This document shows positions 22,723 through 54,376 of a DNA stretch of 64,000 bases, one piece after another. The position numbers and the translations under genes were made by a program. Below the pieces are notes generated by a model. It saw only the letters and a list, made by a program, of their open reading frames with translations. It was not told where the DNA came from and ran no database searches. The stretch is from the NCBI RefSeq assembly GCF_000003815.2, contig NC_049991.1:5425822-5489821 (forward strand), in the 5' to 3' direction. Origin of the DNA: Branchiostoma floridae. Lineage: Eukaryota > Chordata > Leptocardii > Amphioxiformes > Branchiostomatidae. Positions within the stretch are counted from its first letter, which is position 1, and every line of letters starts with the position of its first letter.

Positions 22723-22950
22723 CAAAGGGAAGCATTTCTATGAAAACATATATGAAATGTATGACTCTGGAATTGCAAACACAGCTACCAGTAGGCCTAA
22801 TATAATCACTTGGAGATTTCGACTTCAATGACGACACAGGTTGCTAAGTCATTTGACACAATTTATTTTGCAAAACCTTTACACATGCTTTAAACAAAAG
22901 TAAACGTATATTTCAAGCACAAAGATACCCCCCCTCCCCACTATATCATG

Positions 22951-23233
22951 TCAGACCCCTTCCGTTGTTGATTGGTCAGACCCTTTCTGTTGTTGATTGG
23001 TCAGATCCCTTCTGTTGCTAATTTGTCAGGCCCTTTCTGTTGTTGATTGGTGAAACCCCTTCTGTTGCTGATTGGTCACTGGTCAGACCCCTTATGTTGC
23101 TGATTGGTCAGACCCCTCCTGTTTTTGATTGGTCTGACCCCTTCTGCTGCTGATTGGTCAGACCCTTTTTCACTGTTGATTGGTCAGACCCCTTCTGTTG
23201 CTGATTGGTCAGACCCCTTCTGTAGTTGATTGG
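22951..23233. repeat. Minisatellite, about 25-bp unit, at the MRPS16 3' end
   Basis: About 11 imperfect copies of GATTGGTCAGACCCCTTCTG, with TTGTTGCTGATT-type linkers. The array runs into the MRPS16 last coding exon, whose final residues and stop codon (minus strand, 23209-23211) are made from the repeat unit. Confidence 0.85.
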
Positions 23234-25378
23234 TCCTTTTCCTGTGCCTCCTCCTGTAGTTTTGCAGCCTTCTCTGCTGCTGCCTTCCTGTTTCTCTCCG
23301 CTGTGAGTGTACTCATGGGGTGAAGAGGTAAGAACCCTGAAAGTCCTGGAGAACAAAGAGATAATCAAACACTCAGTTTACATTCAGTATATGCAATCTT
23401 GAGGTAACACAACGCTACTGCTTAGCCATGTGGATCAAATTCTGTGGACTCTTGATGTTGGAGTTTGATGCTTGCAATGTCTATGGTCATTTTGCATATA
23501 TCTTGGACAAATTGCATCTATCCATAGTAAAAAATTGCATTTGTCATTTGGATGGTAACGTAAAGCCAGCGGCCAGTGTATGAGGGAGCTTCAGGTGTAA
23601 GCCTCAAGCATCAAAACTGTGCATGTAAAAGACCCCAACACAGTTATGGATAAGAGTAGTGGTAGCCCGGCATACTTGGCTATCAAAAACACACAAGCAA
23701 GCCGCATAGCACTTCTAGTTCTACCTACAAAAAATTGTCATGCTTTGTCTTTATCAAACTTTCATAGGATAGATTTACAGCCATGAAATCTATATCATGC
23801 TTGTGTGCGCATTAAATGACCCCACTGTCTTGGGATTCTGACGCCATCTGGTCGCCATCTTGTTTCTGGTCTAGATACAGGCCAGACAGTTTCAAGGCTG
23901 CAGTACCATCATGGATCACTAGTTGGCAGTTCAGTACTGCTGAGTAGCAGACCTCCAACGAAACATAACTTTCTGATATATATGTAGTACTCAATAACAA
24001 CATAGAATGTATGTCACCTACTTACAATTTTTCCACTACATAAGTAACATTTCAAACAAGAAATGACAAATACCACTCAAATTTCTGTGAATAATGTACA
24101 AAAAACTCACCTAAAAGTTGTGCCACAGACTTGGTGGGTGTTGCCCCCACTACCAACCAGTGTTTTAGTCTCTCGTAGTTAAAGCTGACAAGTTTTTCGT
24201 TGAAGTCGTTGGGCATAGGGTCATAGGTCCCTAGCTGTGGAATTGCACCAATAGAATAACAAATCAGTTATACATGTAGAAATGCTTTGTACTTGTAGCT
24301 TAGCATTTAGCAACAAAGACAAATGTACTTAAATGAAGGTTAGATATCCAGGTAATAATATAGGCAAGATAACAGTTAATAAAGCACCTGAATTTGGAAG
24401 CATTTGACTGTTTAAAATCTATTCAGTTGCTTGAGTGGCCATTCTCTTGCATGAGGACACAGGTACTAGTAAGGTTCGTTTGTACACTATCACCAATAAT
24501 TGCCTGCAAATATTTTGGTAGATGATAGGTGGCGCTGCAGTGGGAGGATTGCAGTCCCAAATGTGAATGTTATTAACTGTGAAAGTCAGTGTGATCAGGG
24601 GGAATACAAGCTTTTATTTAAGTCACATTTGGGACTGCATTCCTTTCAATACAGACAATATTACAGTACAGAATTCTTTAGTGTTACCATATTCACGAAC
24701 CAAAGACACGTGTTATACAAGATGATACACTCAGTTGAACTGGGATATCTAGAAACAGAAAGCACTTCTGTATCTATATAGCCGGTATAACCGCCGTTCG
24801 GCGTAACACACCAGCTTCGCAGGCGCGCGGCGAGGCAGCAGCTGGTTATATTACACCGAACGACCCGTCACACTTACCTTTTGCACATCTATCTGCAAGC
24901 GTTCTTTAAAACTACCAAGAGAAGATGCCCCTACTATACTTGGTGATAACAAATTCCACTCTATAATAGTTCTGGGAAAGTACGAATTTTCGAACACATC
25001 AATTCTAGGTTGGTAACTCTGGTATTTGAAGTCATGGCTGTTTCTTGTTCTTTTTTGAGCTGGAATTAGATGCTTATCAGTCGGTACGTCCACCAGATTA
25101 TTGGTCATTTTGTACATCATGGAAAGTCTGGACATTTTCCTTCTGTCTTCAAGTGACATCCACTGCAAATCTGTTTTCATTTTGGTAGCTTGGTTCTGTA
25201 CCCTTTCCTTTCCACTTGCCTGTTCATAGATCTCTTTGTCTCTCCCTGCTGGCGTTGGTGCCACCACGATGTGGTAAAACGGTCTGTTGGTGCAGCCTCG
25301 CAATGACAGGCGGATGGATTTTGGGCCGAGCTTCCGAATCTGCGCCCTCTTACCCAGCAGGACTGTAGCCAGACGCAT
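23209..25378 (-). CDS. MRPS16: Mitochondrial ribosomal protein S16, three coding exons
   Basis: Exons 25378-25220 (159 nt), 24234-24111 (124 nt) and 23345-23209 (137 nt) join to a 139-residue protein, close to the 137 of the human protein. Exon 1 carries the family block IRLSLRGCTNRPFYHIVVA, exon 2 LGTYDPMPNDFNEKLVSFNY and KHWLVVGATPTKSV, exon 3 LSGFLPLHPM and a charged tail. It is the small-subunit protein bS16m, acting in mitochondrial translation. Phases fit exactly (0 after exon 1, 1 after exon 2). Intron 1 opens with GC (CAG|GCAAGT) rather than GT, an accepted minor donor. The exon 1 frame runs on into intron 1, where a LINE tail happens to stay open for 122 codons; that read-through is not the mature protein. 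The last residues (ending STTEGV) come from a minisatellite. Confidence 0.93.
23585..23725 (+). repeat. SINE/LINE 3'-tail fragment, second copy
   Basis: Same blocks as 2895-3035 in the other orientation: GGGAGCTTCAGGTGT, AAAAGACCCCAACA, AGTAGTGGTAGCCCGG and AAGCCGCATAGC. Lies in MRPS16 intron 2. Confidence 0.55.
24549..24642. repeat. Short foldback in MRPS16 intron 1
   Basis: ATTGCAGTCCCAAATGTGA and TCACATTTGGGACTGCAT form inverted arms of about 19 bp. Confidence 0.6.
24781..25210 (-). mobile_element. 5'-truncated LINE tail in MRPS16 intron 1
   Basis: The minus-strand frame from about 25195 gives the C-terminal part of a CR1/L2-like ORF2 (SLEDRRKMSRLSMMYKM, then a Lys/Arg-rich stretch, then SYFPRTIIEWNLLSP and FKERLQ). 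The 3' region (24781-24865) holds inverted blocks GGTATAACCGCCGTTCGGCG and TTCGGTGTAATATAACC typical of a structured LINE 3' UTR. The insertion begins a few bases inside the intron donor and has no reverse transcriptase core. Confidence 0.75.
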
Positions 25379-32426: not shown

Positions 32427-32889
32427 AGGCCATGTTGATTTGATTACCCCGGTATATGGATGACATCCTTCAGGAACTCCAAAACTGATGCGAGCGAGCG
32501 AATAAAAAAAAAGTTTGGCCAAAAAAAAAAGTTGCCTTCAGTATGAAATCAAAGTGGCCAGGAAGGTTGAACATAGGACTAAACACACATAGTATGATAT
32601 ACCATGATCCTCTGGACCTGAATTTTCTGTACTGGTACCTCCCTCAACCAACAAAAGATTTTTTTTTTCTTTCCGTCCTTTCACATCTTATTCTTTGACT
32701 TTAGATTCATTTTGGCATTCTATATATGGCGTTAGTTATCTGTTTTCTGATACTCTTTTTTTCAGTCTACGGAATGTTTGTGCTCATTTTACAGCTGCTT
32801 TGCACAATTTATTGTGTGGTCGAAAGTGGAAATGGCCAAAAATTGGTGCGAGCGCGGATGTCATCCATATAACCAAATCAACGTGGCTT
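32427..32889. repeat. Harbinger-like MITE (family B)
   Basis: Left end GGCCATGTTGATTTGATTA, right end CCAAATCAACGTGGC, with TTA on both sides as a 3-bp target duplication. Largely colinear with 44481-44961 (shared CTCTGGACCTGAATTTTCTG). Confidence 0.8.
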
Positions 32890-33029
32890 TATCTCTGAGA
32901 ATAATATAAATTTACTAAAAAGTACCTGTCCCTTCCATGTATGCTTGAAAGCATGGTTCAACTTCTAGTGGTTATTCCCATTGACATAGGCTTTTCACTG
33001 CAGCGTATTACTAATAAGTATTATGTTAT

Positions 33030-33395: not shown

Positions 33396-35329
33396 ATGTC
33401 GAGGAGACATGACATCCGTGGCATTGACCACGATGCAGGTTACGTTCTCGACGAGGAGTTTGAGGAACTGAGCGCGGGAAGCTCAGACGGAGAGGACGAG
33501 CTGGACGTCCTGCTGCACGGGACGGCCAATCAGAAGAGGCGTCTGATCCGACACGCGCTGAGCGGGGACGAGGGGGAGTCCAGCGAATCAGAGGACGACT
33601 TTGAGAAGCAGATGAACAAAGAATTGGATGATGGGATGACTTCAAAGGTCAGTTGATCGTGGGCTGACATCTGTCACGGTAGCCGGAAAAAGGACTTTTC
33701 GCAGTGGTTTTAAGTTCACGGTAGCACCATGCACTTTAGTCCCTTACTGCCATACAAAAATGTTCGCGGCGGATTTAAGTTTGTGGTGAAGCAGCGGCCA
33801 CCGTGAAAACCGAGAACATTAAACCACCGCGAAAGTTTCTGAATTGACAGTAATTCTAACACAAGACTGATTGGCATTTTACTGCATGCTCCTTTTTTCT
33901 GAAAGCCATTGACAGATTATCATTAAAGAGGTTCATTAGTCACGTATGTGCAAAGTTAATAGAATTTTCATCAAGCAGTGACTACTTTTTAAAGGTAAAC
34001 ACACGTCCCTCCAAATTTTCGATGGCTATCAGGCCATCTTGTTCACAGAGATCCAGGCAAGTCTCGACATAGTTCTCACAACTCTCGCGAGAACTAGGTC
34101 ACTCCGTGATCAAGATAGACTGATAGTCATTGAAAATTTGGAGGCATGTGTGTTTACCTTTAAAAAGTAGTCTGCTTGATGAAAATTCTATTAATTGACA
34201 GATTACTGTAAATCAATTTGATATTACGGTTGGGGAGTTTTGGGGAGGAGCTCATGGCATTTGATGAGATGAGAACACTTTTCTGACAGGAGTGATGAAG
34301 TAATTGCAATGATAAAATTCTAGCAGTTTAATAGAATCAAATTATGTTAGCCAATCAAGATATAGTGTTTGTTTGATTATCAGTAATGTTTGGTGACACA
34401 AAAGTACAACTTTTAACCAAATGGTATTTTTGTTTAAGATACTCAGTCTGTCTTTCCTCTTTTGCTTCCAGGAAACAGAAATGTTGCAGATGTATGAACA
34501 ACAGAAGGCTTCAACTTCTGCAGCTGGAGGTCAAGGGTCAGGTCAAAGGTCAGTTCAAGGGTCAGCTGCTGGAGGGAAAGCAGCAGGAGCTGGCAAGACG
34601 AGTCAGCTGACAGCAGCAGATGAGTTTTATAACGATATCTACTTCGATAGCGATGAAGACAGTGACAACGAACAGACACAAGATGTCCAGAATGGGGTTA
34701 AAGGTCAGGAGGTCAAAAGTCACGAGGCCAACTTGGGGTCAGATGGCCAGGGCATGGCACAGAGTGATGCAACAGACGAGAGCACAGACAGCGAGGCTGT
34801 GGGGGCTGATGGGAAGGGGAAAAAATGCAGGAAGAAGCATCGAGTCATGACGAACGATGAGCTTTTCTACGACCCAAACATGGACGCAGACGACGAGAAA
34901 TGGATGACGCGACAACGGGAGAAATACCGAGCAATCAACGAGCAGAAGTCAAGTTTGGGGGCGGGGCCAAGCACGGGCAAACCCAAGGCACAACCAGCGC
35001 CCAACAGCGACGCGATTCTCAACTGTCCGGCTTGTATGACCACGCTGTGCATCGACTGCCAGCGTCACGAACTGTACCAGACACAGTACCGTGCCATGTT
35101 TGTACTGAACTGTAACGTCATCCGTGCCGAGCGCCTCCGGTACCCTAAGAAGAGCAGGGGCAGTAAGAAGCAAAAGAAAGGAGTGGAACGGTTGGAGGCA
35201 GCAGAACCCGGTGCAGAAGGAGATGACGTCTACCACCCTGTCAAGTGTGGAGTCTGTAGTACAGAAGTGGCGGTGTATGACAAGGACGAGATCTTTCACT
35301 TCTTCAACGTGCTTGCTAGTCACTCCTAA
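33396..35329 (+). CDS. EAPP: E2F-associated phosphoprotein, two exons
   Basis: Exons 33396-33647 and 34472-35329 join in phase 0 (AAAG|GTCAGT and CTTCCAG|GAAACA) to 369 residues. Family marks: DELDVLLHGTANQKRRLIRH in exon 1, then an acidic Ser-rich stretch; in exon 2 FYNDIYFDSDEDS, TNDELFYDPNMD, the Cys-rich core NCPACMTTLCIDCQRHELYQ with TQYRAMFVLNCNV, a second CGVC, and the C-terminal block STEVAVYDKDEIFHFFNVL. The vertebrate protein is nuclear, binds E2F factors and affects their transcription activity. This one is about 80 residues longer, mostly from low-complexity Gln, Gly and Ser insertions after exon 1. A possible 5' UTR acceptor (TTGACTTCCAG) lies 8 bases before the ATG. Confidence 0.95.
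33676..33856. repeat. MITE, TACTGTAAA family, in EAPP intron
   Basis: GTTCGCGGCGGATTTAAGTT and AACCACCGCGAAAG are inverted, as in 48364-48572; the right end reads TTGACAGTA. Confidence 0.6.
33956..34194. repeat. Foldback element in EAPP intron, 75-bp arms
   Basis: TTAATAGAATTTTCATCAAG with TTTTTAAAGGTAAACACAC and CTCCAAATTTTC in the left arm are repeated inverted in the right arm (GGTGTGTTTACC-like, then CTTGATGAAAATTCTATTAA). The loop holds TCTCGCGAGA. Confidence 0.85.
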
Positions 35330-38449: not shown

Positions 38450-41400
38450 TCAAGAGCTAGGGGGAGGAGAGGGCTTCACGACTTCATCATAGCTCGGTGG
38501 TGGCGAGTAAGACCCACCCCCTGCCACCTGCGGCGGTCCGCTATTGGCCAACCGAGCCGCCGTTTCCATCGGAACATCAGATCTTGTCGTTGCAGGTCTA
38601 CATAAAGAGGAGAAAGCAAGACTCATTGTCAGTAACTGGCAGCAAAGAGGCACCAATGATTGTCTTGACTATTAAGAAACACATCTTTATGACAAGTAGT
38701 AAAACAATGAAAAAAAAACAGGTAAATGTAGACTACAACGAGGGTCTGCATGCATATTCTTTTCTGTAACGCCTGCCTTAATTTTGGCATTCATGATACA
38801 TATACTGGGGAGATCTGAATTCAGCTGCACATAGATGTGGAAAGGTGGGGAAAAGATAGATAGAACAAAAACTTTGCAGTGGGTTTGAGTAAATTGCAGT
38901 GAATCAGTTACTGCAAGAACTGCAAACACAAAACCACCGCAAACATTTCTGCATTTACAACATAAGGCACAACATCCATCTATAAACATGTCCTTACCTT
39001 TTCTTCCTCCTGTAGCAGATGTAGGTGACCACAATGAGAAGGAGAACTCCACCCACACAGCCTGTGATGATAGCGACCTTCTTCAACCACTGTCGGTGCT
39101 CAACAACTGTATTGAACACAACAAACAGAAGTTGGAAGATATCATAAGTTTCTCGCATGTCTCACTTGATTGTAGCTTATGGATTATGCCAATAAGTTTT
39201 GATGAACATTATATGTGTTCACTGATTACTTCCAATGCCACTCTACAGTGAATACGATTTTTTATTTTTTTTGGTTTCTCCTGTCGATTGGACAGATGAG
39301 GAGGCAGACAGGCTATTTACCTGTTTGCCTGACCTGCACATGACTTTTTATGGTGAAGGAGGGGTGTGCAATTCCTTCTCCACCCTCTCGTCTACTGGAG
39401 CACTAAGTCTCACAGGGGCAACTCACGGTATGCAACGTGTGAGGCGGCTCCAGCAGATGCAGCTTTGTTGTTCAGAGTATCCGTCTCCTAGGAGGCTTCC
39501 GACCAAGGATGTAAGGGGTTCCTCCTACCCCCGACTCGTGTGCCATGGCGGGTGCCGCTCATGCCCGAACATGCCCCTAAGGCCTGCCTCGGCCACATAG
39601 CCCCATCAAGCCACACAAGGCCACTAGATACTCATTTACACCAGTTAAGTGAGGAAAGTCGTGTAAAGTGCCTTTCCCAAGGGCACAAGATCGGTGACAC
39701 AGCAGCTGGATTCGAATACGATTATTACAATACTAAAAATACAGGTCATGTATGATTGTCATGTATGATTAAAAACCAGTTCTACCACCTCTGAAATGTA
39801 CTTCCTGCTACTCCAGCTTGAACTCTGACCTTTGCAGTCATTTTTTTGCTCAATCAATTCCTGCCACTCTATTGACAGTATATTCAAGGAACAACGCACA
39901 CACACCAACCCACAACACAAACAAACACACAAACTATGAACAAAGACTCCAAATAAAAACAAAAGCAAATTGAAGTATCACAGAGGTGAACAATTAAGTA
40001 CAGTCTACATGTATACCAACAGCCCAAAGAATGACATCTATTGTCAAAGTTTTTGACATTTGCTTCCATTGCAAGAGTCCTCTTTCTGCTTCCAAAGTAG
40101 AAAACTCACCCCCGCAGCCACCGTCACTCCAAAATTCCTCATCACTGTTGTCTCCACAGTGGTCGACTCCGTCACACATCAGACTGTCGTCTATACACCT
40201 GTCCCTACGGAGGCACGTGTAGCCATCACAGCCGTGATAATCTGTGGTAAATACAGACACATCAGACTGTCGTCTATACACATGTCCCTACGGAGGCACG
40301 TGTAGCCATCACAGCCATCATAATCTGTAGTAAATACAGACACATCAGACTGTCATCTATACACATGTCCCTACCCAGGCACGTGTAGCCATCACAGCCA
40401 TCATAATCTGTAGTAAATACAGACACATCAGACTGTCATCTATACACATGTCCCTGTAACCCAGGCACGTGTAGCCGTCACAGCCATCATAATCTGTAGT
40501 AAATACAGACACATCAGGCTGTCATCTATACACCTGTCCCTACCCAGGCACGTGTAGCCATCACAGCCATCATAATCTGTGGTAAATACAGACACATCAG
40601 ACTGTCATCTATACACATGTCCCTACCCAGGCACGTGTAGCCATCACAGCCATCATAATCTGTAGTAAATACAGACACATCAGACTGTCGTCTATACACA
40701 TGTCCCTACCCAGGCACGTGTAGCCATCACAGCCGTGATAATCTGTAGTAAATACAGACATATCAGACTATCATCTATACACCTGTCCCTAAGGAGGCAC
40801 GTGTAGCCATCACAGCCGTGATAATCTGGAGTAAATACAGATACGTCTTACTAGTTATAATTATGTGACGTTTGCCAACCAACCAGTTGATGTGTGTGTG
40901 CTACTGACAGTCAGTCTACGTGAGTGTGTTGTGTGTGTGTGTTTCTGTTTCTGTGAATTTGGGTGCATGTGTTAAAGTGTGTGTCTGCGTGCGTGTGTAA
41001 GTATTTCTTGGAAGCTGAGTACATTATTTCAAGTCTTGCTTACTGACTTGATACTTGATAGTCGATGTTGATACAAAAAACATCCTTAGAAATAATGATT
41101 ATACAATGTCATATAAAAGATAAGAACCTCATACACATTGTGACACTTGCAGTTCACAACATTTCAGGAAGAGGGCAGTGATAATCACAGAATTCCAGCC
41201 ACCCTGATGACTCATAATGAAAAAACAAAATCATACATCACAATCAAACCTGCCCGGGAAGACTGCTTATGCGAACAATTAATATCTGGTCTTCATGGAC
41301 AGATGTTTTAGACAGAATTCTTATAGCTTGCATCAAAGAGAAAAGTAAGGAACTACCAAAAAGTCAGGTCACATTAGCGCAGGTGGTCTTTGTGTAAAAA

Positions 41401-44400
41401 CATATTTGCACACTGGTTTAACTGTAAGTTGAATTAAAAATCGTGCTACATACGTGCTGAATGGTAGACCGTGTATCGGATGCGAATGCGGCCACCGCCA
41501 TTCTGATATGATTTAAGCTTGAGGGTCACATGATGATCGTGTGCATCAAAGTCTTGATGAAATGTCCCACAAACCTTCTCCCAGCTGCCATCAGTAGGAA
41601 CAGTCGTTCCAGTGGCTGTATAGGACCCACTCTACAATTGACAATAGAAAAGGTTAGACAATGCTTTTGAGTGTCAGTGTAATGTTACACAACTTTTCAC
41701 AAATGCAACTTTTGAAAATGCAAAAGTCAGGCAACCATTTTTGCACCTGGGTAGAGGAAAGTCCAGGTAAGCACCTTTCCCAAGGACACGTCAGCGTCTC
41801 TGGCCATGAATGCCAAGAACTGCACCTGTAGCCACTCACTCACAAGGCTACCAGCTATTTGATGCCACATAATTTTGGTAACTAAGACCAAATGCCTTCA
41901 GCTAATTATTAATATGTAATATTGCCTCCTCTGCAGGCCTGACTAAAATTGCGCTCCTGGCAGCCGGCATAACAGTTGCCACCACCTCGGGGAAGCAATT
42001 CCTCCTACGCAGGGACATCCAACAGTGAAAACGCCTGTCTGGATGTACCCTGCTTTCTCAACCGTCACCCTTAGTTCCTGACCGCCCTGTTAGTATAAAT
42101 GTTAATGAGCTTTGAAATACCCTTATATATGCAAGATCCCTTTTGAAAGCCTATTCTCTGATTGGCTGACAGCTGGTTTGTGGCGACGCCCACAGCAATT
42201 AAGGGTGATAGTTGAGAAAGCAGGGTACATTCAGATAAGGTGGTTTTGCCGTTGGATGTCCCGGCGTAGGAACATGTGGAGAAGGGGAATTAATATAACC
42301 CCAGCCAGCAAGAGATTTTGTAAATACTGTGATCAGAGGCTTAACCGGCCATCTTAGTAGCGGGTGTGCCTAAACACCACAAACGACCACAAACAACCAA
42401 GAAACACCACAAACGACCACAAACAACTCTAATATGCAGTGTATATGGGTCAAAGACATTGTGTGGCGCTCTGGAAACATTGTTTAATTTATAAATTTTA
42501 TGAATCTAAAAAATGCAGCAAGTCTTGCTTCGATCTTGAAACCAGCGGACTAACTTGAAGTAATTACTGGTGAATACGTAGGACTTGCTGCGTTTTTTAA
42601 ATTCATAAATGTATAAACAATGTCTCCAGAGTGCCACACAAGGTCTTTGACCCATTTACACTGCATATTAGAGTCGTTTGTGGTCGTTTGTGGTGTTTCT
42701 GGGTCGTTTGTGGTGTTTATAATTAGGCAGACCGTTAGTAGCGGCAAGCTGGCAGCAAATCTGACCACCATAAGAACCTGACCAACATGTTGAATTGAAA
42801 CTTATGAATCAGCGCTTAGCACTTCCCATCAAAAACAAACGCCACTGTTAGACAAAGGCCATGAAACTGTTACAATAAACCTAAGGATGTTTCCAAACTT
42901 CATACCTTGACAAACAGTTCATCTTCGCAGTCGCTATTAGTCCCCCTGATACTGATGTCTGTAAACTGTAGAAAAATCCGCTTTCCAACGGCCGCCACTA
43001 GCGAAACCTGGGTGAAGGAAGATTAATTTACATGTAATTATGGTATATACATTGTGTCGGGCCAGACAAGAAATCATGGAAAATCAAGATCCTTTTTCTT
43101 AGAACTTCTGTGGAGAAACTCTGAAAACGGTGACACCTGGGACATTTATAATGTCCTTGGGGACACAAAGGTAACTGTTTCTTTAATAATAAAGTGCTAA
43201 CAAACAGAAAAAAAATAACATTTAACAACTGCAGTTTGAAATGGGGCTGCTAGGGAACACATCGCTAATCTTTAGCAGGCTATGGTCTCCTACAAGAAAA
43301 ACTACTAGCAAAAAATTGGGTAAACATCCTGTCCCAAAATAAAAACTTAGAAGAAAACAAAAGCAATTACATGTAAATGCAGTTTTGAAGGAATCTGCTA
43401 GGGGATTGAATGACTGAAACACTAGGAAACATTGACAATGCAAGTTATCAACCTTATTCATGGAGATATTAAAGTATTTAGCCTCATTCCCAGACTGCGA
43501 GTGGGTCTGGCTTTTATTTTATGGGGGGGAATTTCACAGAGGACGGTTCGCGAGTTTCAACTCTATAGGTTCTCTTATGCTGGGAAAGAGAGTGTTTACT
43601 GAGGAAGGGAGTTTGCCGTGGAAGGGAGTTTGCCAAAAATTGGAATGGTAGTTCTGTCTCACCTTGAAGCGTCCCCCCATAGAATAAAAGCCAGCCCTGC
43701 TCAAATTCTGCGAAGAAGGCTAATTGATATTGTTATCTTACCGCACAGTCTTCTAAAGCCGGGTAAGAACCCCAGTACAGGTCTCCAGCATCGGAGTCTG
43801 AAATGTCCACCCTGTTCCCACCAGGACTGCAGTAGTATCCCATGCTGACTGTTTACAAAGAAATTCGCAAGTCACATTCAGTCATTTGTATTCCCAGTCA
43901 GCTTGGGCCACACCAATTTAATTTCTTGGTTCACGGATTTTTTCATAAAAAATATGGAGCGAGAGGGCGAAATAAAAATAAAAATTGCAAAATGGTTGGG
44001 GTAAAGGTAACGGCTAATCCAAATCATAAAGAAAAAAAGTTTTCAGCTTGAAAAAAGTACAAAAACACTATTATTGTACAGTAACAGCACCTGTACCCAC
44101 ACTTTAAGGAGCTTATAATATAAAGGCCAATTTGCTACACGAGAAAGTTAGTGAATGGTTTCATTAATGGTGAAAATTTGCTGAGTGGTAATTTTTTTTT
44201 TCCAAAAAATAGGAGCGAGCGAATCTGTGAACCAAGAAATTAAATTGGTGTGGCCTTGTGTATCTGTATCTACTGTCACGTTATCAAATTCCGTCTGTAC
44301 GCTGTTTATTAACCCAATATCTATGAATGATGTAACGCTGTATCGGTTATTATATTGTATTTGTGAAAGTTTGATAGCCTGTATAACAATACTCTCCAAG

Positions 44401-45910
44401 AAAGAGTTTTGGCTGGTCTTGAAATAGGCGTTTTTGTAATGCTAATTCTATTTTGTCCTGCTGGTGTACTGGTAACGTTAGGCCATGTTGATTTGATTAT
44501 ATGGATGACATCCTTCAGGAACTCCAAAACTGATGCAAGCAACTCCAAAACTGATGCAAGCGAATAAAGAAAATTTAAAGTTTGGCCCCCAAAAAAAGTT
44601 GCCTTCAGTATGAAATCAAAGTGGCCAGGAAGGTTGAACATAGGACTAAACACACATAGTATGGTAATCACCATGATCCTCTGGACCTGAATTTTCTGTA
44701 CTGGTACCTCCCCCAACCAACAAAAGATTCCGTCCTTTCACATCTTATTCTTTGACTTTAGATTCATTTTGGCATTCTATATATGGCATTAGTTATATAA
44801 ATCTGTTTTCTGATACTCTTTTTTCAATCTACGGAATGTTTGTGCTCATTTTACAGCTGCTTTGCACAATTTATTGTGTGGTCGAAAACTTTTTTTTTTT
44901 GGAAATGGCCAAAAATTGGTGCGAGCGAGGATGTCATCCATATAACCAAATCAACGTGGCCTTACATTAAAAAATGGGACAAAATAGACGGCCCGGAAAA
45001 ATGCCTAAAAAAACGCTGGAACTGATTCTCTGCTTGGAAAGTAAAGGATACTGTAAGTACATGTAAGTTTGCGGGAATTTGATTTTGCGATAGCGGGAAA
45101 ATGGAGTTTTACTTTTAGTGATTTTCCTTAAAGTTCATGGTGTAGTAGCAAGTTTGCGTTTGAGTTCATGGTGATGTGGCCACTGCAAAAACAAAGCGTA
45201 AAAAAATCATTAACACCACTGGAAACATTTCTGCATTTACAGTATCAGTCCTTGGGTTAAAGCCTCAGTGCATGTGCGAACCCCGTGACTAAGACCATAT
45301 ACTTGGCAGTTGCTATGCTGTTTCCTGTATTGATTTATATATAGAGAAGACAAATAATGGTTTTATGTATCACAAACTATCTACCTCTCTTTCAATACTT
45401 CTTGTGCAAGAAGCCTTCGGGCATGATTTTGCAAACATAAACACTCCGAGAGCCTGGCCTCTAATTAACATACAGCACTACGTAACGTTTATGTTGCGGG
45501 CTGGGATAGAACATAGAATGTAATGTCAAGTAACATTAAGTACTTGGTTGGTAAACGTTACCATATTAAACCCTGCACAGTATTTCATAGCCACCAGCCT
45601 ACACAACGAATAGTCGACAGGGGACACAACGTTACAACTAATGGGGCAAAGCTATATTAGAAACTGCAAAAATATTGAAACGAGGAAGTTTGGTTTCGCC
45701 TTAGTATGACAGGTAACGGTACCAGTGTCGCAGGTCCAGAGAAACAACAACGTTTACCTCACAATCTGTAACGTTACCCAAGGAGCTTTTATCAGGTAAA
45801 AGCTCCTTGCGTTACCTAAACTGCTAGAAGTACTTACTGTCTTTCGTCGCCGCTCTAACATATGTGAAGGCAAGGACCAGGAGAAAGTTGTGAATCCAGG
45901 AGAGCGCCAT
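38450..45910 (-). CDS. CUB-LDLa-TM membrane protein with PPxY tail, minus-strand copy
   Basis: Seven exons: 45910-45838, 43848-43742, 43007-42906, 41631-41454, 40241-40110, 39106-38998 and 38597-38450, totalling 849 nt and 282 residues. Splice phases (1,0,0,1,1,2) match the plus-strand copy exactly. Parts: signal peptide (MALSWIHNFLLVLAFTYVRA), one CUB domain with four Cys over exons 2-4, one LDLa domain in exon 5 (CDGYTCLRRDRC to CGDNSDEE), a TM helix in exon 6 (AIITGCVGGVLLLIVVTY) and a tail with PPPSYDEV, a PPxY motif that binds WW domains of Nedd4-type ligases. The tail ends in PSPPPSS after a 3' change that removes the NxVV end seen in the other copy. Intron 4 carries seven truncated copies of the LDLa exon start. 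Ligand unknown; LDLRAD4/PMEPA1 and NETO proteins share parts of this plan but not all of it. Confidence 0.85.
38868..38961. repeat. MITE relic in intron 6, shared with 53056-53146
   Basis: TACTGTAAA-family fragment 37 nt past the TM exon; the plus-strand gene has one 44 nt past its TM exon. Shared ancestral insertion. Confidence 0.6.
39600..39722 (-). mobile_element. tRNA-derived SINE fragment in intron 5
   Basis: Minus strand: B-box-like GGATTCGAATCC region near 39708, GATCTTGTGCCCTTGGGAAA and ACGACTTTCCTCACTTAAC. Confidence 0.6.
40242..40837 (-). repeat. Array of seven truncated LDLa exon starts with splice acceptors
   Basis: On the minus strand, copies start at 40324, 40407, 40493, 40576, 40659, 40742 and 40825, ahead of the full exon at 40241. 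The period is 83 bp except one of 86 (3 extra bases near 40455). Each unit has CTGTATTTACYACAG, then the first 71 bases of the exon (ATTATGATGGCTGTGATGGC and on to CTGATGTGT), and no donor site. The structure is the same as in the plus-strand gene. Confidence 0.95.
40838..41453 (-). other. Intron 4 outside the array
   Basis: (GT)n-rich stretch near 40888-41000 and ordinary intron sequence. No other feature. Confidence 0.5.
41735..41850 (-). mobile_element. SINE fragment in intron 3
   Basis: Minus-strand CCTTGGGAAAGGTGCTTACC and GGACTTTCCTCTACCC match the SINE body. Confidence 0.5.
42004..42270. repeat. Foldback element with about 70-bp arms
   Basis: CCTACGCAGGGACATCCAAC and CTGCTTTCTCAACC at the left are inverted as GGTTGAGAAAGCAG-like and GTTGGATGTCCCGGCGTAGG at the right. 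Confidence 0.75.
42374..42720. repeat. Large foldback with ACCACAAACG repeat ends
   Basis: Arms of about 165 bp. The outer ends are repeats of CACCACAAACGACCACAAAC (left) and GTTTGTGGTCGTTTGTGGTG (right). Inner matches include TCTAATATGCAGTGTA and AATTCATAAAT-type blocks. Confidence 0.85.
43493..43705. repeat. Foldback element in intron 2
   Basis: TCTGGCTTTTATTTTATGGG and CCCATAGAATAAAAGCCAG are inverted; the loop has GGAAGGGAGTTTGCC twice. Confidence 0.7.
43906..44255. repeat. Harbinger-like MITE (family C), second copy
   Basis: Same inverted ends as 37796-38153, interior reversed. TTG flanks both sides as a 3-bp target duplication. In intron 1 of the minus-strand gene. Confidence 0.88.
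44481..44961. repeat. Harbinger-like MITE (family B)
   Basis: GGCCATGTTGATTTGATTA at the left and CCAAATCAACGTGGCC at the right, TTA duplicated on both sides. Very similar to 32427-32889, so a young family. In intron 1. Confidence 0.88.
45048..45243. repeat. MITE, TACTGTAAA family, in intron 1
   Basis: Starts TACTGTAAG, ends TTTCTGCATTTACAGTA. The plus-strand gene has a member at 48364-48572 at a comparable place in its intron 1, next to shared text (GTCTATTTTGTCCC), so it may be a common insertion. Confidence 0.65.
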
Positions 45911-47783: not shown

Positions 47784-50700
47784 ATGGAGCTTTCGTGGGT
47801 TCAATGCTTTCTCCTGGGTCTTGTCTTCACATATGTAAGAGCGGCGACGAGAAACAGTAAGTACTAACAGTTTAGTTACCAGTTTTAACGTTCAACTTTA
47901 TGTGAAGTTTAAAGCGTGCACGCTCGCGCTCACACATGCTGTTGTTGTTTTTCTCGACTTGGGATACTGGTACCGTTACTTAGGCGAAACCGTATGTTAC
48001 TCAGTCCTCGCTTTTAATAGCTTTGCCGCATAATTTATCTCCTATAGTGATCTCTATAATGTGCAGTTGTGACAAATTATAGGAATCTGAAGTATTTGTC
48101 CCCTCGACAATAACTATCATCATATGACATCATGTGAAGTTCAAGTATAGGGTGTTGGTCGGGAAATAGTTCGAATAGCAGTGCAGGTTATATGGTGTAC
48201 GTAGTGAGGTTTATGATGTCCATAACGTATACGTAGTGCTCACAGTATGTCCAAAGTATGACCCTAGTGTCAGAGGCCAACATCCCACCGTCCCCCCCAG
48301 CCCCAAGGGTTTACGGAAACGGCTGGGCTGTCTACTTGGGCTGGCTACCATAACAGGAAATAGATTACTGTAAATGCAGAAATGTTCGCGGTGGATTAAT
48401 GTTCACGGTTTTTGCGGTGACGACTTCACCGCGAACTTAAAACCACCGCAAACATTTTTCTATTATGGTATTAGACTGTAGTCTATGTCGAACTTAAATC
48501 CACCGCGAAAAGTCCTTTTTCCCGCTACCGCGAAATTAAATCCCCACGAACTTATTAAGTATATTTACAGTACCCTCCATCACAGACCAATCAGCAATTA
48601 GCATCCAAGGTAAAGGACAGTTATACCAAGAACCTTATACATTGTACTTTGCGCTCCAAGCAGAAGTTTGGCTCCACCTGTTTTCTGACAATGTTTTATG
48701 TGTTTTGTCGGGCTGTCTATTTTGTCCCTTTTTCTTCATGGTCAAAATAAAAACCACGTCAAAAACAGCCAGAGCCAAACCTCTGCTTGGAAAGTAATGC
48801 ATCATGTAACGTTACATTATAATTATGAACTATCTTTTTCTAACTTATGAACTATCAGAAATTATGTCAGCGATACAGCAAAATGCCGACTCAGCATGCA
48901 GATGACTAAATGTGACTTGCATATTTTTTTGTTAACAGTTGACATGGGGTACTACTGCACACATCCTGGAAACAGGGTGGACATTTCAGACTCTGACACT
49001 GGAGAGTTGTTTTTGGACCCTTATCATGCCTCAGAAGACTGTTCGGTAAGTTAACAATCTTTATATTATCATACCTGGGCTGTGATAACGCTCGATAAGG
49101 GACTGAGTTACTGTGTTTAAGTGTGTTATCACACAGGGTCTGTTATAAGATATTACATGTAGCTTCCATCAGGTTTGAACATACCGTATTTTCTCGAATG
49201 AAGTGAGTCGCACTTTTAAAACTTTTCAAAATTGAAAAGGCGCAAATACTGCTACAAGTGGTTGCCAAAGTTAGGATGTGCACAGATAACTTTAAGTGGT
49301 AAAAAAACATTTGTATTTGTGAACAAGTGTTTTTTTTTTCTGACACAAGGCTGAATCTCAATATGGTTACAGTGTGTTACAATAGCATAGGCTGTACGTG
49401 TGTATGTGGTGTTCAATTATATTACTAGTACAATGTATATAGCAAGTGGCAGGACAGAGCTGGAGGGGCTGATCACCATATACATGAATGTGTTTGAGTG
49501 AGATAAACAGAGCAGTAGTTAAATGTTAGGCTAGACCATATGGGAAGGTACACATTTTCTTGCAAATGTCCCTCACATACCACAATTTTCTTTTACCCAG
49601 GTTACTCTGGTGGCAGCCGTCGGCAAGCGGATTTTTCTACAGTTTACAGACATCAGTATCAGGGGGATTAGTGGCCATCGAGACTGCACAGATGAATTGT
49701 TTGTTAAGGTATGAATTTTGAACACATCCTGGGACTTTATAGGAACTCATAATGACCACAACAGACAGCAAACATGATGTTTCTAAGCTGTATTATGATC
49801 TTGTAAGTCATCTAGTATTACTGTAGACCTAGTCAACTTGTGCAAAAATGTAACTGGGCATCAACTCAGATTAGTCTGACCTTGGTAGTGCACACAGTCA
49901 CGACAGTTATAGCCTTTGCCGTCATCTAGGAGCAGCAGCGTTTATTTTTCAGGGGAGCACTGATTACAATACCTGCAAATGGGGCTTTATAATGTTACAT
50001 ATCCCAAGGCATTTGGTCTTATCAGAAACCTTTGTTGCAATTCTCTAATGTTTTGTGGCATCAAATCCAGGCTATGCTAGCAGACTCAAGAGCAAAATGT
50101 AACTCTGGTTTGGTTTCTGGCTGAGACATTGTGGAATGGCATTAATAACAGTCAACTTTCCTCATCACTTCTTTCACCTTGCCAAGTTTTTTTGTAAGAT
50201 AATTTTTATTGAGTTTCAAAGAAAAGAAACACATACAAACACATGCAAGTTTTTTGTTTGTTAAATTTTCCTGAAATTTCTTTAAGTTGCATAGCATTTA
50301 ACACACATAGGTAATCTGACTATCATGTTCTACTGTCTTTGCAGGGTGGATCCTATGGAGGGGGTATCCGTCCAGACAGCTCCTGGGAGAGGGTTTGTGG
50401 AATATCTCATCCTGACTTTGATGCACACAATCGTCATGTGACCCTCAAGTTCAAAAGTTATCTGCATGGCTATGGCCACATCCGCATCCGGTACACGGTC
50501 TACCATTCAGCGCGTACGTATTACAATTTTCAATTCAACGTACAGTCATTTAAATGCGTAATTCAATGATATACCCTCAAAGTAAGACAGATCGGGCAAC
50601 ATGTAGTCTGTTGTGCTAAATTTCTGGTTGAAGAAGAATCCACCGAGAAACGAAATCGTTGATCTTTGAAGAACAACAAAGCATCACTACCAGTACTATA

Positions 50701-53700
50701 CATTTTACCCAGTTGCAAGGTGATTGGCATGTATAGTCAGTAGCAAAGGTTGGTTTGATATGCCTGTCCATTACATTTTAAGGTAAGCCTGCAAGTGTGC
50801 CATAGTCACTCACTATCCAATTTTTTTGATTGTTTGTGCCATGGGAGGATGAAATTGCAACCTATCGCTTGATACTTTCTTTAACATCTGTTTGGTTTCT
50901 GCTTGTAGAATTCTATGTTTGATAGAGGAGAAAAACAATTGTAAGCAATGCTGCAACTTGGTGTGGACTCTTTAAATAAATGCTGTACAATGTTACAGAC
51001 AGTACACAAAATTCAATTTGCCCAGAAATTGTTCTAAAATTCACCAGAGAGTTTCTAAGTTCTGTTACCAAACATCTGGATCCGCCAGTCAGATGTGTGT
51101 GTGTATTCACTACAGATTATGATGGCTGTGACGGCTACACGTGCCTCCGTAGGGACAGGTGTATAGATGACAGTCTGATGTGTCTGTATTTACCACAGAT
51201 TATCACGGCTGTGATGGCTACACGTGCCTCCGTAGGGACATGTGTATAGATGACAGTCTGATGTGTCTGTATTTACCACAGATTATCATGGCTGTGATGG
51301 CTATACGTGCCTCCGTAGGGACAGGTGTATAGATGACAGTCTGATGTGTCTGTATTTACCACAGATTATCACGGCTGTGATGGCTACACGTGCCTCCGTA
51401 GGGACATGTGTATAGATGACAGTCTGATGTGTCTGTATTTACTACAGATTATCACGACTGTGATGGCTACACGTGCCTGGGTAGGGACATGTGTATAGAC
51501 GACAGTCTGATGTGTCTGTATTTACTACAGATTATGATGGCTGTGATGGCTACACGTGCCTGGGTAGAGACATGTGTATAGACGACAGTCTGATGTGTCT
51601 GTATTTACTACAGATTATGATGGCTGTGATGGCTACACGTGCCTGGGTAGAGACATGTGTATAGACGACAGTCTGATGTGTCTGTATTTACTACAGATTA
51701 TGATGGCTGTGATGGCTACACGTGCCTGGGTAGAGACATGTGTATAGATGACAGCCTGATGTGTCTGTATTTACCACAGATTATCATGGTTGTGATGGCT
51801 ACACGTGCCTCCGTAGGGACAGGTGTATAGATGACAGTCTGATGTGTCTGTATTTACCACAGATTATCACGGCTGTGATGGCTACACGTGCCTCCGTAGG
51901 GACATGTGTATAGATGACAGTCTGATGTGTCTGTATTTACCACAGATTATCATGGCTGTGATGGCTACACGTGCCTGGGTAGAGACATGTGTATAGATGA
52001 CAGTCTTATGCGTCTGTATTTACTACAGATTATGACGGTTGTGACGGCTACACGTGCCTGGGTAGAGACGTGTGTATAGATGACAGTCTGATGTGTCTGT
52101 ATTTACTACAGATTATGACGGCTGTGATGGCTACACGTGCCTGGGTAGGGACATGTGTATAGACGACAGTCTGATGTGTCTGTATTTACTACAGATTATG
52201 ACGGCTGTGACGGCTACACGTGCCTGGGTAGGGACATGTGTATAGACGACAGTCTGATGTGTGACGGAGTCGACCACTGCGGAGATAACAGTGATGAAGA
52301 ACATTATAGTGTCGGTGGCTGCGGGGGTGAGTTCTCCACATTTTGAGATTGTGGAAACAAATGTTGCAAACTTGACATGATTCTTTGTGTTGGATGATGT
52401 TTTTTATACAAATCTGTATTTGATTTAGTGCTTTGCTCACCTCTGTGATAATAATCACTCAGTGTACAGAGTCTTCGTTATCGGTCTGTGTGTGCATGCT
52501 TGTTTGTGTTGGTGTGTGTCTGTAGTCACTTGAATACACTGTCAGTATAGTGACAGGATGTGAGTGGGATGACTGCTAAGGTCACAGGAGGTCAGAGGTG
52601 GTAGAATTAGTTGTTAATCAGACATGACAGTCTTGGTCAATGAAAGAAGCTACTACTGCACGATTTTCACATATTGTTTTTGGTCTGACCTTTTTTTTCA
52701 CAGATTCTTATTAAAATATTCAATATGTTCTTCACTTTCACTGTAGCATGACAGGAAGCGATCAATGGACACATGTACCATTCATCAAAACATTATTTCC
52801 ATAACTAATAACCTACCATCAAAACATTAGACACTTGATAAACGCTAAGTATTTCACAGAGTCATGAAACTTCAAAGTCTTGTTTGTCCTGTTTTTTTCC
52901 CAGTTCTACATCACCGACAGTGGTTGAAGAAGATTGGAATCATCGCAGGCTGTGTGGGTGGAGTTCTCCTTCTCATTGTGGTCACCTACATCTGCTACAG
53001 GAGGAAGAGAAGGTAAGGACATGTTTCAATAATAGATGGGTGTTGTGTCCTATACTGGAAATGCAGAAATTTTGCATTGGTTTTAAGTAAGCAGATTTTG
53101 CAGTAACTACTTTACTGCAAACTTGAAACCACTGTGGAATTTTTGTTCTGCCATCCCTCCCACCTATCCCTTGTCTATGTGCACCTGACTACAGAAGAAC
53201 TTCTGCGTATTATGCCAAAATCAAGGAAGGCTGAATTATGCAAAATTTTGCCGCCTCACTACGAATTGAATTGAATAATACAGATTACAGTACAAATTAT
53301 GGAATATCAAAATAGGCTACTGACAGCTTACAGAAAAGAACATACAGACGCTCACTGTAGGGCTGACGTCAGAGTTGCGTTGCGCGGTAGAGGGCAAAAA
53401 ATGGGAAGACGATTTGGGTGTGACTTAAAATCCTTGAAAATCCTTCTTTTCCTTGAAAATTTTTGCCCAATCTGGAGACTTTTTGAGTTAGAAGAGACAG
53501 GTAGGGTCTAAGCTTTCCTGTTTGGGTCAAAATTTGTTCAGTTCAGCAGTTCAGCTGGTGTAAGGACAGGTTTTAGTTATAGGGTGCTACTGGTTGTATC
53601 AGGAGGGAAAATGGGTCAAAGGTGAGGTTTCTTTCATAGAGCGAGCTTTTCTCCGAGAATGAGCCAAACAACCCTCTGTTTTCTTTGAATGCTTATAAAC

Positions 53701-54117
53701 TAGACCCAAGTGACTTTCTGGTGGAGAAGAATTTTAAAGATTGAACTATGGGTTAGTACTTTTTTGAAGCCTTCATTCAGTGTATTTCAACATGCTTGTC
53801 AATGGGCAGCCCTAACTTCGATGTCTGACCTGTAGTCTACCTTTACCTGTTTCCATTTTTTTCATTGTTTTACTACCTGTCATAAAGATGTGTTTTTATT
53901 CATTACATTGGTGCTTCTCTGATGCTGTTCATTGACACTGAGTATTGCTTCCTTCTCTTTCAGCCCTGCGACAACAACATCTGATGTTCCTATGGCAACG
54001 GTGGCTCAGACAACCAATAGGGGACCGCCACAGGGGACAGGGGGTGGGTCTTACTCACCACCTCCTAGTTATGATGAAGTAGTGAAGTCCTCTCCTCCTG
54101 GAAATGCTGTGGTATAG
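47784..54117 (+). CDS. CUB-LDLa-TM membrane protein with PPxY tail, plus-strand copy
   Basis: Seven exons: 47784-47856, 48939-49045, 49601-49708, 50345-50513, 52195-52326, 52904-53012 and 53964-54117, totalling 852 nt and 283 residues. Signal peptide about 1-21; CUB domain about 25-152 with C31, C59, C89 and C114; LDLa 157-195 with six Cys and the calcium-site text CGDNSDEE; TM 207-228 (IGIIAGCVGGVLLLIVVTYI); cytoplasmic tail with PPSY (266-269) and an end NAVV, which resembles a hydrophobic PDZ ligand. The predicted place is the plasma membrane, with the CUB and LDLa domains as a ligand-binding ectodomain; the PPxY suggests control by Nedd4-type ubiquitin ligases. It is divergent to, and an inverted duplicate of, the gene at 38450-45910. 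Intron 4 contains 13 truncated copies of the LDLa exon start. I do not recognise a named orthologue. Confidence 0.87.
48308..48355 (+). repeat. Fragment of the GGGTTTACGG element
   Basis: GGGTTTACGGAAACGGCTGG then GGGCTGGCTACC match the left end of 45972-46914. Confidence 0.6.
48364..48572. repeat. MITE, TACTGTAAA family
   Basis: TTACTGTAAATGCAGAAATG at the left, ATATTTACAGTA at the right, with GTTCGCGGTGG and CACCGCGAAC inverted inside. Confidence 0.8.
50514..51115 (+). other. Intron 4 upstream of the splice-acceptor array
   Basis: Starts GTACGT. Ordinary intron sequence ending in a partial repeat unit (CAGATGTGTGTGTGTATTCAC) just before the first array copy. Confidence 0.6.
51116..52194 (+). 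repeat. Array of 13 truncated LDLa exon starts, 83-bp period
   Basis: Copies start at 51116, 51199, 51282, 51365, 51448, 51531, 51614, 51697, 51780, 51863, 51946, 52029 and 52112, every 83 bp without one indel; the real exon is the 14th, at 52195. Each unit is an acceptor (CTGTATTTACYACAG) plus 71 bases coding for YDGCDGYTCLGRDMCIDDSL and M-C. CTGAT about 22 bases before each AG could serve as the branch point, and it lies in the half-exon of the previous unit. There are two text types, CLRRDRC/CLRRDMC and CLGRDMC. No unit has a donor, and since 83 is not a multiple of 3, use of any early acceptor leads to a TAG within the next unit. Confidence 0.97.
52327..52903 (+). other. Intron 5 of the plus-strand gene
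   Basis: GT-rich near 52480-52530, otherwise featureless; donor GTGAGT, acceptor TTTTTTCCCAG. Confidence 0.6.
53056..53146. repeat. MITE relic in intron 6, shared with 38868-38961
   Basis: ATGCAGAAATTTTGCATTGG and TTTACTGCAAACTTGAAACC correspond to the fragment at the same intron position of the minus-strand gene. Confidence 0.6.
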
Positions 54118-54147: not shown

Positions 54148-54376
54148 AGGTAACGCTAGTTCACCTTTATTCGCGGGGTAACCTTTATCCGTTACATTTA
54201 ACACCAGGGTATTTCAGGATATCAAGTCGGCTGACGGTGGTCTCAAACTGCATTATATTGAAAAAAGACTGCAATTCGAAACTACCGCCCATCAACGCGA
54301 TATTCCAAAGTATCTTGTTTTGAAGTACAACGGATATAGGTTACCCTGCGAATAAAGGTGAACTAGCGTTATATAC
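54148..54376 (+). repeat. MITE (family D) in the 3' UTR
   Basis: TAACGCTAGTTCACCTTTAT at the left and ATAAAGGTGAACTAGCGTTA at the right are perfect inverted ends. It lies 30 bases after the stop codon and in the same gene-relative place and orientation as 38190-38390. Confidence 0.88.

Follow-up and report, generated by a model that had tools for sequence, protein, structure and literature searches.

Tandem copies of an LDLa exon border in two inverted receptor genes of Branchiostoma floridae are probably a neutral amphioxus mirage

Fourteen near-identical 3′ splice acceptors, 83 bp apart, stand at the LDLa exon of a Branchiostoma floridae receptor gene, and the array that carries them is very probably an amphioxus mirage, neutral and homogenized with the coding exon. 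The term mirage denotes tandemly duplicated intron-exon borders of amphioxus genes (PMC3087553; this paper and PMC3902484 are cited throughout from excerpts). The first-pass annotation of the window, which is the whole stretch of 64,000 nucleotides analyzed here, held that no case of this kind had been described, which is incorrect, as mirages of this kind appear in the excerpts of both papers. It had also left two alternatives for the array, a splicing rheostat or a neutral minisatellite ignored by splicing, and the latter fits best. The features of the plus-strand gene are the following:

50345..50513, plus strand: upstream exon of the receptor gene, CUB-like by eye and ending in phase 1 (sequence reading)
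51116..52194, plus strand: 13 decoy units of 83 bp with 13 decoy acceptors (TRF, spacing and splice reading)
52195..52326, plus strand: functional 132-nt LDLa exon, followed by donor GTGAGT (Pfam PF00057 at 25.7 bits, above the 24.1 cut-off)
52904..53013, plus strand: transmembrane exon (hydrophobic stretch by eye)
53923..54114, plus strand: open frame with a probable cytoplasmic tail and a PPPSY motif by eye; the exon start is not fixed

A Pfam search bearing on the CUB identity of the upstream exon found no family, either for the exon or for a joined piece assembled by eye.

TRF reports a tandem repeat at 51096-52262 of the plus strand with a period of 83, 14.1 copies and 94% matches. The exon-start positions run 51116, 51199 ... 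52195, and all 13 spacings are exactly 83, so the fourteen acceptors were placed correctly at the outset, as were the donor (GGGG/GTGAGT, after the last exon base at 52326), to which the last acceptor alone runs straight, and the end of the upstream exon at 50513. Each unit spans the intron-exon border and contains the splice signal AG, with 15 nt of intron end followed by 68 nt of exon start (52195-52262) rather than the 71 bases originally given. A CTGAT had been said to precede each AG; it is found at 12 of the 14 acceptors, with its A at -21, but unit P12 has CTTAT and unit P01 has neither. The anatomy that had been proposed, namely decoy acceptors, a repeated branch-point-like motif, a frame-shifting period and an early stop, is otherwise borne out by the checks of spacing, motif and translation. 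A chance origin of the array is ruled out by the TRF result together with octamer shuffles, since the window's plus strand has 18 occurrences of [AC]CAGATTA, with 14 inside the array, against a maximum of 7 and a mean of 2.7 in 50 mononucleotide shuffles. Bases 51086-51099 of the intron match exon bases 52250-52263 at 13 of 14 positions and, judging from the letters themselves, this match is a plausible microhomology that could have served the first duplication.

A second array of the 83-bp unit, absent from the first-pass annotation, lies on the minus strand from 40825 to 40241, in an inverted copy of the gene at a distance of 11 kb:

41454..41631, minus strand: upstream exon of the inverted gene copy
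40242..40825, minus strand: 7 decoy units of the inverted copy, one with a 3-base in-frame insertion
40110..40241, minus strand: functional 132-nt LDLa exon in the inverted copy (PF00057 at 20.7 bits, short of the 24.1 cut-off)
38997..39106, minus strand: transmembrane exon of the inverted copy

This array has 8 acceptors, 7 of them decoys, with one spacing of 86, and together with its LDLa exon it occupies 40110-40841 of the window on the minus strand. TRF gives a period of 83, 8.0 copies and 94% matches; both arrays, with 14.1 and 8.0 copies of this period, are thus minisatellite-like tandem series, as mirages are. The number of acceptors differs between the two gene copies (14 vs 8) in the one assembly used. 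When the whole assembly (513,431,437 bases, 431 contigs) was searched at the DNA level for more copies of the array, at least these two and no others were reported, the counts being lower bounds. Among the 38 matches of a protein search of the genome, the strong ones are these two receptor genes and the weaker ones are LDLa-like sequences elsewhere.

The published mirages offer close parallels. In BflGb6, units of 150-160 bp repeat an intron's 3′ end joined to the 5′ part of an exon, one haplotype having 6 of them and another 3, and in BflGb9 the 3′ border of an exon is duplicated at 157 bp (PMC3087553). The same excerpts describe Adh3 mirages with somatic instability and point to further amphioxus loci (PMC3087553), and PGBD5 and troponin C have been added as mirage genes (PMC3902484). 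The receptor arrays share with them tandem minisatellite units over an intron-exon border that are alike inside and diverged at the edge, and with BflGb6 the joint duplication of intron 3′ end and exon start. They differ in that the receptor gene is not among the genes named in the excerpts of PMC3087553 and PMC3902484, in that the plus-strand array has 14 acceptors, more than the examples published there, and in that the arrays sit in two inverted gene copies with a common variant pool. A minisatellite of repeated splice sites also occurs in human 6-16 (IFI6/G1P3), where two downstream repeats act as splice donors and yield three mRNA species (Turri 1995, as cited in an excerpt of PMC4526556); the repeated sites are donors in that gene, whereas in the receptor array they are acceptors.

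Other mirages are present in this genome. A survey covered 92 exon loci, some of which overlap or adjoin one another: all 23 ADH loci, all 9 globin loci, the best 30 of 150 listed LDLa loci and the best 30 of 137 listed EF-hand loci. The mirage detector flagged 23 of the 92, and 11 of the flagged loci were judged by eye, the other 12 and the 69 unflagged loci lying outside that reading. Eight were accepted (L004, L021, L051, L060, L064, L072, L078 and L089), with L064 judged from its TRF unit and its extracted copies; L014, L043 and L063 were flagged by the detector and judged not to be mirages. By family, mirages were found at 2 of 23 ADH loci, 2 of 9 globin loci, 1 of the best 30 LDLa loci and 3 of the best 30 EF-hand loci. 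Because ADH, globin and EF-hand were chosen for their already published mirages, 8/92 is not a genome-wide rate. L004 is an Adh-type exon with 59 bp x 6.9 at the acceptor and 33 bp x 9.8 at the donor, L064 is a globin array of 158 bp x 4.2, and L060 is a globin donor duplicate with 157-bp spacing. Compared by description with the excerpts of PMC3087553, these three agree with Adh3, Gb6 and Gb9, respectively, in family, border and globin unit length. Further splice-border arrays lie at an ADH-family exon (L021), an LDLa exon (L051) and EF-hand exons (L072, L078 and L089), and the last three could include a known mirage.

When a decoy acceptor of the plus-strand gene is joined to 50513, translation meets an early stop after 44 residues in 13 of 13 cases, and acceptor 14 leads into the open 132-nt exon; in the inverted copy, all 7 decoys give an early stop after 44 or 45 residues. 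The earlier assertion that any acceptor other than the last gives a stop holds for all 13 when the unit is read on, but fails if a GT inside the unit serves as donor, and splicing from the GT that lies 33 nt in would preserve the frame. The early stops from 13/13 and 7/7 decoys would suit a splicing rheostat, in which decoys would capture a share of splicing that ends in an early stop and copy number would set the productive output. The presence of the array in two gene copies and the upstream acceptor signals of most decoys, which are as good as that of the real site, would suit it too. However, no evidence of a rheostat emerged from the sequence analysis, and one is very unlikely. A decoy exon running to the 52326 donor would measure 215-1211 nt, and the two genes have unequal numbers of decoys (13 and 7). 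Furthermore, Adh3 data and globin RT-PCR suggest that mirages leave regular splicing undisturbed (PMC3087553), and no aberrant mRNAs arise from the Adh and TnC mirages (PMC3902484), as far as the excerpts on these other genes go.

Over the 22 bases preceding the acceptor, 5 of the 13 decoys match the real site exactly, and neither this comparison nor that of CTGAT found an upstream-sequence advantage of the real acceptor over the decoys. Given these identical stretches and the recurrent CTGAT, a local upstream signal cannot explain the choice of acceptor. The last acceptor would presumably be chosen because it alone lies a normal exon length (132 nt) from a good donor. On general principles of splicing, acceptor choice is most simply explained by exon definition; in a neutral mirage it would select the last acceptor, and the decoys would leave with the intron. 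The locus is a natural test of how the spliceosome chooses among 14 near-identical acceptors in differing context.

Comparison of the two arrays reveals a common pool of variants. Units of the plus-strand (P) and minus-strand (M) arrays are on average 93% identical to each other, equal to the identity inside each array, whereas the intron before the array is 49% identical between the gene copies (39-43% in the shuffled control). Identity is 56%, with many gaps, in the intron that follows the LDLa exon, and 76%, 89% and 91% in the upstream exon, the unique half of the LDLa exon and the transmembrane exon, respectively. Across the arrays there are 9 shared polymorphisms, no fixed differences and 16 variants confined to one array. 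Together with the 93% identity of units against 49% in the intron, this indicates that the arrays exchange sequence or that one was recently copied from the other. Inheritance of a long array by both copies without later exchange is ruled out by the same disparity between intron and units. A single clade of M units is rejected (p-AU 0.003), in a tree test that recombination between units makes approximate, and none of the 15 inner branches of the unit tree is well supported. The mixing is nevertheless incomplete, and units still cluster by array: grouping by array takes 4 changes against a mean of 6.5-6.6 for shuffled labels, with 12 and 7 of 500 shuffles as low.

Several units are identical within an array (P02/P04/P10, P06/P07 and M03/M06). 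The units at the edges, P01 and M01, belong to the most diverged, and P12, an inner unit, is diverged too. The arrays are therefore homogenized inside the cluster with the edges excluded, and in published mirages the cluster edges are likewise diverged and outside homogenization (PMC3087553, excerpts). Unequal exchange within arrays would keep the units alike, as would gene conversion or recent copying between arrays. By eye, the translations gave no sign that the duplicated half of the LDLa exon changes faster, since 3 residues differ between the copies in each half. A variant pool common to two inverted arrays may be new.

All the results rest on one assembly, and one globin mirage appears to be wrongly assembled in a genome draft (PMC3087553, excerpts). 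It is nonetheless very improbable that misassembly produced the array or its number of copies, as neither array contains an N, the two differ in copy number, variants and orientation, and other loci of the genome also have mirages.

The decoys also vary in a coding-like manner. Over the 22 units, the exon-half variants comprise 9 synonymous and 6 nonsynonymous changes, against an expected nonsynonymous share of 0.75-0.82 (P 0.0003-0.005). With milder null shares, the window alone gives P 0.04 at 0.65, 0.10 at 0.60 and 0.30 at 0.5, for units that are not independent; the share of 0.65 is an estimate made here for free decoys beside a constrained exon. Eight mirages were entered into a comparison of decoy with functional exon, of which 6 gave decoys (19 copies) and L051 and L078 gave none. 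Pooled, these six other mirages have 30 synonymous and 13 nonsynonymous changes (P 4e-6 at a null share of 0.65 and 0.007 at 0.5), counts in which some divergence may belong to the functional exon. L089 shows the opposite, with 0 synonymous and 2 nonsynonymous changes. In the receptor arrays, common and private variants do not differ significantly (Fisher 0.33), and no variants are private to the two functional units. Decoy exon halves thus appear to exceed the neutral expectation at synonymous sites, weakly so for the window alone under the milder nulls, and this may be new. The synonymous excess is read here as decoys that would be repeatedly re-seeded from, or pass through, the coding position; since every unit may come to occupy that position, decoy sequence would stay coding-like.

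Compared with re-seeding, a less likely reading of the coding-like variation is use of the decoys as in-frame mini-exons. Each unit would then be a 33-nt exon, from the acceptor to TGG/GTAGGG, with a 50-nt intron, and would add the 11 residues HYDGCDGYTCL. This would account for coding-like constraint in decoys, 33 nt keeps the frame, and in 7 of 22 units the donor reaches 5.0 bits, compared with 2.7 and 5.4 bits for the two authentic upstream donors (these and the following scores come from a donor-site matrix). However, the corresponding site is TCC/GTAGGG (0.8 bits) in 8 of 22 units and TGG/GTAGAG (1.2 bits) in 5 of 22, two of the 22, M01 among them, have no usable GT there, and a frame-shifting GT at 43 nt scores higher (5.8 bits) in 6 units. 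The functional exon carries TGG/GTAGGG as well (52227) and must stay uncut there, a 50-nt intron is very short, and mirages of other genes show coding-like variation too. Mini-exons are extremely unlikely. The rheostat, for its part, does not need coding-like decoy variation.

For the neutral mirage, the shared pool and the coding-like decoys suggest that decoys of mirages belong with coding exons to a single evolving pool, an idea that is not stated in the excerpts of PMC3087553 and PMC3902484. It is unlikely, though conceivable, that the inverted arrays further act as a shared archive of receptor variants that diversifies the LDLa domain. The decoys would then store versions of the LDLa N-half, chiefly D/H, G/R and M/R at three positions, and exchange would move stored versions into and out of the two coding exons. 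Under such an archive, the ladder of 14 units may in addition make a small share of the mRNA unproductive, in dependence on copy number.

The window contains other repeats. Near-palindromic stretches at 42381-42718, 33956-34194 and 54151-54371, of about 220-340 bp and 74-82% self-complementary, are perhaps mobile elements. A dispersed direct repeat of about 430 bp occurs at 32472-32891 and 44538-44964 (88% identical), and a 25-bp minisatellite, GTCAGACCCCTTCTGTTGTTGATTG, is present in 11 copies at 22950-23235.
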